A DNA stretch of 32,569 nucleotides, taken from positions 1-32,569 of the forward strand of contig NZ_JTLI01000041.1 of the NCBI RefSeq assembly GCF_000799075.1, written 5' to 3'. The notes beneath the pieces were generated by a model, which worked only from the letters and a program-made list of their open reading frames with translations, was not told the DNA's origin and searched no databases. The position numbers and the translations under genes are program-made. This stretch comes from Cetobacterium sp. ZOR0034. GTDB taxonomy: Bacteria; Fusobacteriota; Fusobacteriia; Fusobacteriales; Fusobacteriaceae. Below are positions 3,189-7,835 of this stretch, in pieces; position 1 is the stretch's first letter; each line of letters starts with the position of its first letter.

Positions 3189-5042
3189 ATGTTTAGTGTA
3201 AAGAAAAGTTTAATAGGATTACTAGCATTGATAGGAGCGACAATGGTAAATGCTCAAGATGAATATAAGGTTGCATTTGTTTCAGATGTGCATTTTCATG
3301 ATGTATATGGAGATTTTAAAGGGGATTTTAAAGGGTTGAAGAGTGAGGTAACAGGGAAATATGCAACAATAAGAACAATGGATTCTCAAATGAATTCGAC
3401 AAGATTATTTAACGAAAACTATTTTGCATTTATAGCTGTTTTAGATGACTTGGTAAAAAAGGATATAAAATATATTGTTCTTCCAGGAGATTTTAGTGAT
3501 GATGGACAAGAGGTTCATATAGAAGGTTTGAAAAAGATTATGGATAACTATACTAAAAAACATGGGATAAAGTTTTATATAACATTTGGAAACCATGACC
3601 CTGTTATGCCAATGACAGTTGATAAAGGAAAGATGGATTATCTTGGAGAGAATGGAAAAGAGCAGCCTATTTTCAGTAAAAATTCAAAGATAAAAGAAAA
3701 AGATGGAATGAATCCGGTTATATTCTCAGAAGTTGTTAAAGAGCAAGGGTATGAGGATATAATGAAACAGATAAATAGTTTTGGATTAGTTCCTGAGAAA
3801 AGTGATATCTACTGGGAGACTCCGTTTTCAAAATACAGTTATGAGCAATATAGTTTTGAAAAGGCTTTAGAGGATAGCTCTTCTAAAAATAGAAAATATG
3901 AAATCTCTTATGAGGGCTCTGGAGATAAACTAGGAAATGAAAAATTTGAAATTGTTGATGGAAGCTACTTAGTTGAACCGACAAAAGGGTTGTGGCTACT
4001 TGCAATAGATTCGAATGTATATGTACCGACAGAGGATGGGAAAGGATTCACCTCAGCTTCGAATGCTGGATATAATAGAGTTTTAACACATAAAAAACAT
4101 CTTATAAATTGGGTTGAAAAAGTTGCTAAAACAGCTGAAGAAAAAGGAAAAACTTTAGTTACATTTAGTCACTATCCAATGGTAGATTTTTATAATGGTG
4201 CTTCAGAAGAGGTAGAATCTATATTTGGCACAGGTAAATTTGAATTGAGAAGAGTTCCGACAGATGAGGTTGCTAAAACTTTTGCTGACGCGGGAATAAA
4301 ATTACACTTTGGTGGCCATATGCATTTCAATGACACTGGAGTTAAAAAGAATGAAAATGGTAATTTTTTAGTAAATGTTCAAGTTCCTTCAATAGCTGCG
4401 TATATACCAGCTTACAAATTATTATCTATAGATAGTAAGGAAGGTCAAGCTTTAATACAAACAGTTAGAATAGATGAGGTTCCAAGATTTAATGAGTTGT
4501 TTGAGCACTATGAAAAAGAGTATGTTCAATTAGAAAAATCAGGAGTGAAAAATATTTGGAATAAAGATATCTTAAAATCTAAAAGTTATAAAGAGTTTGC
4601 AAATTGGCATATTCAAGAGTTAGTGAGACTTAGATTTTTACCAAAAGATTGGCCAGAGGATATTAAAGAAAATATAATGCCAATGTCAGGAAAAGATATG
4701 TTTAATCTTCTAGCAGTAGGAAATGAGAAAAGTGCAGAGAAGATTTTAAAAGAAAATGGTGTTAAAGTGAGTGATTTAGAAAAATGGAATGGAATAGATT
4801 TAGTTACAGATTTATATCGTTTTAGAAATGCTGGAAATTTAGCTTTAAGTGATGTTTCGACTCAACGTGTGAAAGAGTATAAAGTTATTTATGAGATATC
4901 TTTAAATAACAAAACTGAAGAAAATAAAGTTCCAGATAGAGTGAAAGTTTTATTTAGTATTTTAAATAGATTTATCAATGATTATCCAGATACAGACTTT
5001 ATAATCGATATGAAAACAGGGGATTTAAAAGTTAAAATATAG
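3189..5042 (+). CDS. Secreted calcineurin-like metallophosphoesterase
   Basis: 617 aa. A signal peptide (about 1-22, ending near VNA|Q) is followed by a metallophosphoesterase domain with every metal-binding motif in order: D33/H35 ('SDVHFHD'), G100-D101 ('PGDFSDDG'), N135-H136-D137 ('FGNHD'), H328 ('FSHYP') and G-H377-x-H379 ('GGHMH'). A two-metal hydrolase acting in the periplasm or at the surface on phosphoesters is therefore well supported. The substrate (nucleotide, phospholipid headgroup or other) is not evident. The segment between the third and fourth motifs is long (about 190 residues), and residues after about 430 form an unrecognised C-terminal region of about 185 aa. The gene appears monocistronic. 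A TATAAT (3147-3152) and GGAAGAGGAG precede the ATG. Confidence 0.88.
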   Translation: MFSVKKSLIGLLALIGATMVNAQDEYKVAFVSDVHFHDVYGDFKGDFKGLKSEVTGKYATIRTMDSQMNSTRLFNENYFAFIAVLDDLVKKDIKYIVLPGDFSDDGQEVHIEGLKKIMDNYTKKHGIKFYITFGNHDPVMPMTVDKGKMDYLGENGKEQPIFSKNSKIKEKDGMNPVIFSEVVKEQGYEDIMKQINSFGLVPEKSDIYWETPFSKYSYEQYSFEKALEDSSSKNRKYEISYEGSGDKLGNEKFEIVDGSYLVEPTKGLWLLAIDSNVYVPTEDGKGFTSASNAGYNRVLTHKKHLINWVEKVAKTAEEKGKTLVTFSHYPMVDFYNGASEEVESIFGTGKFELRRVPTDEVAKTFADAGIKLHFGGHMHFNDTGVKKNENGNFLVNVQVPSIAAYIPAYKLLSIDSKEGQALIQTVRIDEVPRFNELFEHYEKEYVQLEKSGVKNIWNKDILKSKSYKEFANWHIQELVRLRFLPKDWPEDIKENIMPMSGKDMFNLLAVGNEKSAEKILKENGVKVSDLEKWNGIDLVTDLYRFRNAGNLALSDVSTQRVKEYKVIYEISLNNKTEENKVPDRVKVLFSILNRFINDYPDTDFIIDMKTGDLKVKI

Positions 5043-5065: not shown

Positions 5066-5094
5066 TTGACGAGATATTTTTTTTATGATAGAAT
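5066..5094 (+). promoter_or_regulatory. Promoter of codBA leader
   Basis: TTGACG (5066-5071), a 17-bp spacer and TAGAAT (5089-5094) form a strong sigma-70-like promoter. Predicted transcription start is near 5101-5103, which puts the leader ORF and attenuator within the first about 190 nt of the transcript. Confidence 0.75.
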
Positions 5095-5129
5095 TCTTTC
5101 TAGTGTAAAAAAAGGAGGTGAAGTATAAA

Positions 5130-5267
5130 GTGAGAAAGAGGAAGAGAGAAAGTGGCGGAATAAACATATTGTTGTCGTTTTTATATTCTTTATCTATTTC
5201 ATCTTTTATATTTTCATCAAACTTTAATATATTTTATTTAAAAAATAGAGTGGTTTCTGCAGCATAG
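5130..5267 (+). CDS. 45-aa leader peptide of the codBA attenuator
   Basis: A GTG start (5130) lies 11 nt after the strong SD AAAGGAGGTG (5111-5120). It begins VRKRKRESGG, followed by a hydrophobic Ile/Leu/Phe/Ser/Tyr-rich stretch, and ends VVSAA with TAG at 5265-5267. Codons 14-37 are very U-rich (44 of 72 bases by my count). The stop codon falls in the loop of the terminator hairpin at 5241-5294. Length and geometry closely match the 44-aa pyrBI leader peptide of enterobacteria, whose translation couples RNA polymerase pausing at U-tracts to attenuation. No function of the peptide itself is implied. An in-frame GTG at 5118 overlaps the SD and is less likely. Confidence 0.7.
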   Translation: MRKRKRESGGINILLSFLYSLSISSFIFSSNFNIFYLKNRVVSAA

Positions 5268-5294
5268 GTTGCAGTGGCTATTCTATTTTTTTTT
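5241..5294 (+). terminator. Attenuator: intrinsic terminator overlapping leader ORF end
   Basis: Arms 5241-5261 and 5270-5290 pair through about 20 bp with one U-U mismatch and four G-U pairs (inner stem CTGCA/TGCAG, 8-nt loop). Nine consecutive T (5286-5294) follow. It lies between the promoter and codB, so it must be read through for codBA expression. A ribosome translating to the leader stop codon would melt the 5' arm. Confidence 0.8.
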
Positions 5295-5331
5295 AGGCAA
5301 AATCAAAGAAGACTTAATTAAGGAGAGGGAG

Positions 5332-6582
5332 ATAACTATAGCAAAAAATTATGATTCAGACTTTTCATTTGGAGCAGTAGCAGAGAGTGATAAAAGAGGG
5401 CTACTTTCAATGTTTGTAATAATGTTAGGATTTACATTCTTTTCGGCAAGTATGTGGACAGGGGGTACATTAGGAATAGGACTTACAGGAGCAGAGTTCA
5501 TACTAGCAGTACTTTTAGGAAATTTAATTCTTGGAATTTTCACTGGAGCTTTAGCTCACATTGGTGCAAAGACAGGGTTATCTACACATCTTTTAGCTAA
5601 ATACTCTTTTGGAGAGAAAGGATCATATTTAGGTTCGTTCTTACTAGCTTTAACACAAGTTGGATGGTTTGGTGTAGGAGTAGCGATGTTTGCTATACCT
5701 GTAAATAAAGTAACAGGAATAGATATGAAGCTTTTAGTTGCTGTATCGGGAGTATTGATGACATTCACAGCGTACTTTGGAATTAAGGCTGTTACAATTC
5801 TATCAGCAATTGCAGTACCAAGTATAGCAGTTTTAGGTGGAACTTCAGTAGTAAGTGCCATAAATCATGCTGGTGGATTGAAAGAAGTGATGAATATAGC
5901 TCCGATAAATTCAATAACAGTTATGACTGGAGTTGGAATGTGTATAGGTTCATTTATAAGTGGAGGAAGTTTGACAGCTGACTTTGCAAGATTCTCAAAG
6001 AATAGTAGAGTTGGAGTTATAAGTACACTTGTAGCATTTTTCCTTGGAAACTCTTTAATGTTTATATTCGGGGCTGTTGGAGGAAAAGTTTTCGGAACAG
6101 CGGATATTTCAGAAGTTATGTTCTCACAAGGGATTATAATTCCAGCAATTATCGTTTTAGGATTTAATATCTGGACAACAAATGACAATGCTCTTTACTC
6201 ATCTGGATTAGGATTCTCAAGTATCACAAAGTTACCAAAAAGTAAGATGGTTATGTTAAATGGAGTTTTAGGAACAGCATTTGCACTTCCAATTTATAAT
6301 AACTTTGTAGGATGGTTAAATCTTTTAAATACTCTTCTTCCAGGAATTGGAGCGATTATAATTTGTGATTACTTCTTTGTAAAAAAAGGTGAGTATGATA
6401 AAATAGAGAATATGGAGTTCTTAGGAGTAAATGTGATTGCGATATCAGCTTGGGTTATTGGGATAGCTGCTGCGAAATTTATTCCAGGAATAGCACCTAT
6501 AAACAGTGTTATCTTTACAATGGGAGCTTACTATGTAGGAACTAAAGTGATGGAAACAAAAAGAAGGAGTGAGGCATGTTAA
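5332..6582 (+). CDS. codB: Cytosine permease CodB
   Basis: An NCS1-family cytosine:cation symporter with about 12 TM helices that imports cytosine for CodA. It aligns almost end to end with E. coli CodB as recalled: '[18 protein letters not shown]', '[17 protein letters not shown]', '[17 protein letters not shown]', '[11 protein letters not shown]', '[11 protein letters not shown]'. The start is problematic. The upstream in-frame TTG (5269) lies inside the attenuator hairpin and adds residues homologues lack, and the next ATG (5410) would remove the conserved '[13 protein letters not shown]' lead-in. A strong SD (AAGGAG, 5320-5325) points to about 5332-5340, where only ATA codons (5332, 5338) are in frame, so the start given is provisional. 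It overlaps codA by 7 nt, implying translational coupling. Confidence 0.93.
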
Positions 6583-7835
6583 TTAAAAACGCAAAATTAA
6601 GAGATAGAGACGAACTAGTTGATATTCTGATAGAGAATGGAAAGTTCGTTAAAATAGAAAAAAATATTGAGAGAACTAATGTTGAGGTTATAGATATAGA
6701 AGGAAACATCTTAATGGAACCTTTTGTTGAGCCACATATCCATTTAGATACTACGATGAGTGCTGGTGAACCAAGATGGAATAGAAGTGGAACGCTTTTT
6801 GAAGGAATAGAGTGTTGGGGAGAAAGAAAGGCTATGCTTAGCCATGAGGACGTAAAGAGAAGAGCTAAGAAAGCTCTAAAATGGCAAATCTCAAACGGTA
6901 TTCAATTTGTAAGAACTCATATAGATATCACAGATCCAACTCTTATGGCACTGAAGGCGATGGTAGAATTAAGAGAAGAGATGAAAGAGTTTGTGGAGAT
7001 TCAAATAGTTGCGTTCCCACAAGAGGGAATTCTTTCGTATCCAAATGGAGAGGCTCTTATGGAAGAGGCTCTAAAATGTGGAGCGGATGTTATTGGAGCT
7101 ATTCCTCACTTTGAGTATCAAAGAGATTGGGGAGTAGAATCTCTGAGAAAGATTATAAAACTTGCTCAAAAATATGATAGATTAGTTGATGTACATTGTG
7201 ATGAGATTGACGATGAGCAATCGAGATTCTTAGAGGTGTTAGCAGCTGAAGCATGGGCAGCTGGAATTGGACACAAGGTAACAGCGAGTCATACAACTGC
7301 GATGGGTTCTTACAATGACGCTTACACTTATAAGTTATTTAGACTGCTGAAGCAATCTGGAATAAATTTTGTGGCGAATCCACTTGTAAATATTCATTTA
7401 GGTGGAAGATTTGATACTTATCCAAAGAGAAGAGGAGTTACGAGAGTTAAAGAACTTTTAGAGGCGGGAATAAATGTAGCTTTTGGACATGATGATATAT
7501 TCGATCCTTGGTATCCACTAGGAAATGGGAATATGCTACAAGTTTTACACATGGGATTACATGTTTGTCATATGATGGGATATGATGAGATTTCAAAATC
7601 TCTTGATATGATATCGAAGAACTCAGCTAAAGCTCTTTGTCTTGAAGATAACTATGGTATAGAAGTTGGAAAAGCAGCTAACTTTATAGTGCTGTCTGAA
7701 AATAATGATTTTGATGCTGTGAGATTACAAGCAGCTGTAACTCACTCTGTGAGAAATGGAAAGTTGATAGCTATATCGGTTCCAAAAGTTTCTAAGTTAT
7801 TCTTAGGTGAAGAAGAGATGGTTACATTTAAATAG
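6576..7835 (+). CDS. codA: Cytosine deaminase CodA
   Basis: 419 aa, an amidohydrolase-superfamily TIM barrel that hydrolyses cytosine to uracil and ammonia in the cytoplasm, feeding pyrimidine salvage. The expected catalytic residues are present: H54/H56 ('EPHIHLD'), H207 with E210 ('[10 protein letters not shown]'), H239 ('SHTTAM') and D306 ('[15 protein letters not shown]'). They correspond to H61/H63, H214/E217, H246 and D313 of E. coli CodA. The start is ATG 6576, preceded by AAGGAG and overlapping the codB stop, so translation is probably coupled. A strong terminator follows at 7845, closing the operon. Confidence 0.95.

Follow-up and report, generated by a model that had tools for sequence, protein, structure and literature searches.

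How the codBA genes for cytosine uptake and deamination are controlled in an AT-rich fusobacterium is the question raised by a 32,569-nucleotide stretch of Cetobacterium sp. ZOR0034 (contig NZ_JTLI01000041.1 of assembly GCF_000799075.1, positions 1 to 32,569; hereafter the window), in which a short open reading frame (ORF) and a terminator separate codBA from its promoter. The initial annotation, made from the letters alone, took this leader for a pyrBI-type attenuator responding to uridine triphosphate (UTP). Comparison with relatives supports that reading, since the same anatomy recurs at pyrB, carA, pyrK and a symporter gene; the UTP response is our inference. We propose that the codBA leader is probably a transcription attenuator of the pyrBI type, in which RNA polymerase and ribosome are coupled on a U-rich leader ORF, and that it is an inherited leader of the family copied in front of codBA.

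All features of the leader lie on the plus strand. An unrelated gene ends at 5042, just upstream of a sigma-70-type promoter (5066-5094; TTGACG-17-TAGAAT, 10 of 12 matches, with the TG of an extended -10). From the promoter spacing the transcript would start at about A5102 with the 5' end AGUGUAAAA (5102-5110), which would offer no U run for slippage. The leader Shine-Dalgarno (SD) sequence AAAGGAGG (5111-5118) precedes an ORF of 45 codons with a GTG start (5130-5267; peptide VRKRKRESGGINILLSFLYSLSISSFIFSSNFNIFYLKNRVVSAA), which has no in-frame stop, against three and two stops in the other two frames. The first 13 codons are rich in purines (33 of 39 bases), and codons 14-37 (5169-5240) form the U-rich tract, the proposed UTP-sensitive stretch and anti-ribosome-binding-site element, with 44 T and only 8 C in 72 bases; the maximum among 8,753 in-frame 72-base stretches of the other genes of the window is 39 T. 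An intrinsic terminator follows (5240-5294), with a predicted hairpin at 5240-5291 of 16 + 7 bp (-27.4 kcal/mol, z -6.5, none of 200 shuffles as stable) and a T9 tract at 5286-5294 that pairs partly into the stem. The leader stop codon UAG (5265-5267) sits within the four-base loop AUAG. The initial annotation had described each of these parts, and they hold at the base level: a strong promoter and a good SD sequence, the 45-codon GTG ORF, the count of 44 T, a terminator of about 20 bp (23 bp in our fold) with its T9, and a stop codon in the hairpin loop.

That annotation also asked whether ORF, U-tract and terminator would be conserved in relatives while the peptide diverges, and the answer is positive. 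Among the 12 genomes of the genus only one other carries this codB, 91% identical, and in its leader (L002, minus strand) the promoter is conserved (TTGACT-17-TAAAAT). The ORF there again has 45 codons and the same end point, and the hairpin pairing is maintained through changes on both sides. The peptides have diverged (VRKRKRESGGINILLSFLYSLSISSFIFSSNFNIFYLKNRVVSAA in the window versus MRIRKRKIKDLNVFLMFLNFLTNLFFIFLSRFKIYYLNNGVVPTI in the congener). The gene upstream of the leader differs in the congener, indicating that the leader travels with codBA.

The same check extends beyond codB, to pyrB, carA, pyrK and the symporter across the family. Among pyrB upstream regions across the phylum, the anatomy was seen at 41 loci in nine genera, eight in one family and one in another, and within the genus each of the 12 genomes has it before pyrB (relatives carry our labels, g for genera, f for families, G for genomes and L for loci). 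It was not found at pyrB in g3, g9, g11 and g12, where in g12 pyrB is placed downstream of another operon gene, nor in most of family f4. At its 5' end the codBA leader shares the motif GUGUAAAAA followed by the SD sequence with the pyrB and symporter leaders of the genus, and the pattern GTGTAAAAAN{0,10}GGAGG gave 25 matches in the 12 genomes versus one when reversed; leaders of this kind account for 14 of the 25, and the remainder lie before or in unrelated genes. This search revealed the third target in the genus, a sodium:dicarboxylate-family symporter (PF00375), which has a similar leader in nine of the 12 genomes (among them L255 at G000:C25:7156-7245, L208, L209, L227, L230, L245, L247 and L256). 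The genome of the window holds three such leaders, heading the symporter gene, codBA and the operon pyrB-K-D-F-C-E, whose products were named by sequence inspection.

A covariance model was built from 25 leaders of pyrB, codB and the symporter, using their 3' part. Within the genus all sense-strand matches above 46 bits lie before pyrB (12), codB (2) or the symporter (9), of which L255, L245 and L247 were read individually. Across the family the model recovered carA and pyrK leaders that were absent from its building (L279 among them; the g12 matches were inspected in part) and a symporter leader in genus g2 (L287). In the 58 leaders tabulated, each ORF has 25-70 codons and ends inside the hairpin or no more than about 15 nt from it; in L103, L184, L177 and L183 the ORF spans the terminator, an arrangement shared with E. 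coli. All 58 are open in the ORF frame, and almost all have stops in the other frames, but because the ORFs were selected as open, the better argument for coding is that length and stop position are kept. The hairpin covaries as well: 97% of cells are paired, with 46 two-sided changes versus 14.4 ± 4.1 in shuffled alignments, and pairing falls to 39-63% when the structure is slid by 1-3 columns; the structure came from the same alignment, which favours pairing.

In the mechanism that we infer from these features, the leader would be translated, UTP would be the signal, and events would run as follows. When UTP is high, polymerase would pass the U-rich tract fast, and the tract would fold onto the leader ribosome-binding site (RBS), with the leading ribosome missing or far behind; the hairpin would then form and transcription would end before codB. 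When UTP is low, polymerase would slow within the tract and the leader RBS would stay open longer, so that a ribosome could close up behind polymerase, reach the stop codon inside the hairpin and prevent its formation, and codBA would be transcribed. The same module, as the family's inherited pyrimidine leader, would serve pyrB, carA, pyrK and the symporter and would have been copied before codBA.

The part assigned to the tract in covering the RBS comes from folding. In the codBA leader a long stem is predicted (5103-5232) in which the tract covers the SD sequence and start codon, with an RBS pairing of 0.92 with the tract and 0.09 without it. The other folded leaders likewise show the tract predicted to pair with SD sequence and start codon, and the mean predicted RBS pairing across leaders is 0.79 with the tract and 0.40 without. 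Tract and RBS are more complementary than with codon-permuted targets in 13 of the 15 groups, at a clade-mean z of -1.40 (p 3e-4); measured against shuffled RBS the excess is seen in 14 groups, at a mean z of -1.20 (p 2.6e-4), the 15 groups being not fully independent; an adjacent control segment gave the opposite sign (z +0.65). The tract may accordingly have two uses in the model, sensing UTP and also shutting the leader to ribosomes. We put forward, tentatively, a double device in which the time of tract synthesis would read UTP and the finished tract would close the RBS of its own leader, with UTP setting how long ribosomes can load; this would be a portable module that replaces PyrR in the phylum and of which salvage and transport genes have received copies. 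The pairing may alternatively do no more than spare translation of the terminated RNA.

Several observations weigh against the attenuator model or parts of it. Termination, leader translation and the response to UTP are all predictions, made from a promoter and a leader start and stop that are themselves read from sequence, and the gene association would be equally compatible with uridine monophosphate (UMP), cytidine triphosphate (CTP) or uracil as the signal. A hydrophobic peptide also gives U-rich coding DNA, and some 72-base stretches outside the gene frame, on either strand, reach 44-46 T. At least one strong model match (46 bits, G082; L277) is an ordinary terminator without such a leader. 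The RBS complementarity is weak in g13, g12 and carA, and the two codB leaders themselves reach only modest values (z -1.2 and -1.8). In the same test pyrL of E. coli behaves similarly (z -2.5), its RBS being predicted as paired with or without the tract. The symporter is an unexplained target. Finally, codB (5338-6582; NF008241, 553 bits, cut-off 326) has a good SD sequence, AAGGAGAGGGAG (5320-5331), and at its expected start (5338-5340) an AUA, not AUG, GUG or UUG, where the congener has AUG; the AUA may be a start codon of a rare type, a mutation of this strain or a sequencing error, and could mean that the gene is weakly expressed. A UUG at 5269, one base past the leader stop, shares the codB frame. 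The downstream gene codA (6576-7835) encodes the cytosine deaminase (NF006685, 731 bits, cut-off 483).

The symporter scores below the cut-offs for DctA and GltP and is a candidate importer of orotate, aspartate or dicarboxylate. It would fit a pyrimidine leader if it imports orotate or aspartate. A passage in PMC13328217 cites orotate uptake through DctA in E. coli and Salmonella.

Among other explanations, control by an RNA-binding protein or a nucleotide-binding RNA at the terminator, PyrR-like or a riboswitch, with the ORF incidental, has in its favour that the hairpin sequence is partly conserved among the pyrB, codB and symporter leaders, and that a PyrR site (RF00515) lies directly upstream of codB at five of the six Firmicutes loci tested (L008, L010, L022, L029 and L081). 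Against it, PyrR protein scores above cut-off in only three of 98 genomes (G018, G030 and G062) and in none of this genus; no PyrR binding site was found in the genus or the window, and no Rfam family above threshold in the window. Folding of nine leaders gave no recurrent antiterminator pairing with the 5' arm of the hairpin, and in g5, g2 and f6 the hairpin sequence has diverged while ORF and U-tract are retained, with ORF frame and stop position kept in all leaders. We regard such control as improbable. Within the phylum PyrR is confined to genus g8, which lacks this leader at pyrB, and the search of relatives for PyrR sites gave a single match, also in g8, at 51.5 bits, just below the gathering score. 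In g8 (loci L203, L204 and L092) at least one genome has a PyrR-type leader, a swap of mechanism inside one family.

About as improbable is coupled attenuation that senses a general translation lag or another nucleotide, CTP or guanosine triphosphate (GTP), in place of UTP. Its coupling logic would be identical, the sequence does not reveal the signal, and the 5' half of the leader ORF is rich in purines; what argues for UTP is that U is enriched before the terminator, with C so scarce there, and that the targets are mostly pyrimidine genes. Classical amino-acid attenuation, in which stalling at scarce Phe, Ser, Ile or Leu codons would choose between terminator and antiterminator, appears very unlikely. 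The leaders are indeed rich in these residues, yet the genes concerned serve pyrimidines and not amino acids, neither a conserved run of a single codon nor a conserved antiterminator of the trp or phe type was seen, and a ribosome stalled in the tract would leave the hairpin free. That the ORF instead encodes a functional small membrane peptide, which the terminator merely separates from codBA, is hardly credible: a basic start and hydrophobic remainder do resemble one, but its sequence differs greatly from one codB leader to the other and from genus to genus, at constant position and length, there is no Pfam or NCBIfam match, and the leaders avoid A, V, G and M, residues that membrane segments commonly contain (F/Y/I/L versus A/V/G/M 59:10 in the leaders and 125:144 in CodB, the single comparator; p 2e-9), a preference expected if selection acts on U content and not on membrane insertion.

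The attenuator model has its closest parallel in E. coli pyrBI (PyrL, L298), where an SD sequence, a leader ORF of about 44 codons, a pyrimidine-rich tract and an intrinsic terminator with a U run stand directly before aspartate carbamoyltransferase. The features of the pyrBI type are found here too: a leader ORF with an SD sequence before a terminator, a U-rich stretch, an ORF end placed to block the hairpin, and pyrimidine targets. For pyrL, tight coupling across the leader was reported to be necessary to prevent the terminator (PMC5021804). Unlike in pyrBI, the start proposed for codBA would lack the U run, the U-rich tract is far longer (17-23 T in the best 30 bases versus 14), the hairpin is AU-rich with the stop usually inside it, and the module is repeated before codBA, carA, pyrK and the symporter. 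The PyrR attenuators of Firmicutes (RF00515) share the genes, the pyr operon and codBA, and likewise have a terminator in the leader, but they need PyrR and its RNA site, and most of the PyrR-preceded Firmicutes codB leaders show no such ORF. In E. coli the control of codBA concerns the same genes and, on the attenuator model, the same signal, but it acts at initiation, whereas here control would lie at an attenuator.

These comparisons bear on the origin of the codBA leader. The codB, symporter and pyrB leaders are alike beyond composition, within the genus and with g4 and g10 (z 2.7-8.6), so codBA has probably gained a copy of the family-wide pyrimidine leader. The initial annotation had called the arrangement an independent solution; in the sense of an origin at codBA itself, that does not appear to stand. 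No such leader precedes codB in the family's other genera, where the identity is about 50%. The nearest CodB proteins outside the phylum are from Firmicutes (62-64%), and codBA might have been transferred from that phylum. The logic of codBA control in Firmicutes and here seems alike and the mechanism different.

Two further observations concern related leaders. The carA and pyrK leaders of g12 (L280-L286) have in common, unlike the other leaders, the peptide motif DVPY..GA together with the bases GATGTTCC(C/T)TAT, and the motif is a possible pause or stalling element. The uraA-like permeases examined have no leader of the kind described here; those of the genus (L132-L137, L139-L141 and L143) have a short leader in which CTATTNAATRG is conserved around the likely transcription start, some 50 bases ahead of the permease gene, and a T run there might permit UTP-dependent slippage.

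To our knowledge, detailed accounts of coupled attenuation that senses UTP come essentially from enteric bacteria, from pyrBI and pyrE, and the open-access literature searched yielded no description of pyr attenuation in Fusobacteria. Term-seq data are reported in a transcriptome paper on F. nucleatum (PMC11005410). The many natural variants of the leader are available for testing how the coupling of polymerase and ribosome reads a nucleotide pool. If our proposal is true, codBA joined an existing regulon by acquiring its leader, while its Firmicutes relatives achieve the same control through PyrR, and coupled attenuation would be the main pyrimidine control in a phylum largely without PyrR, exerted by copied leaders over synthesis, salvage and perhaps transport.
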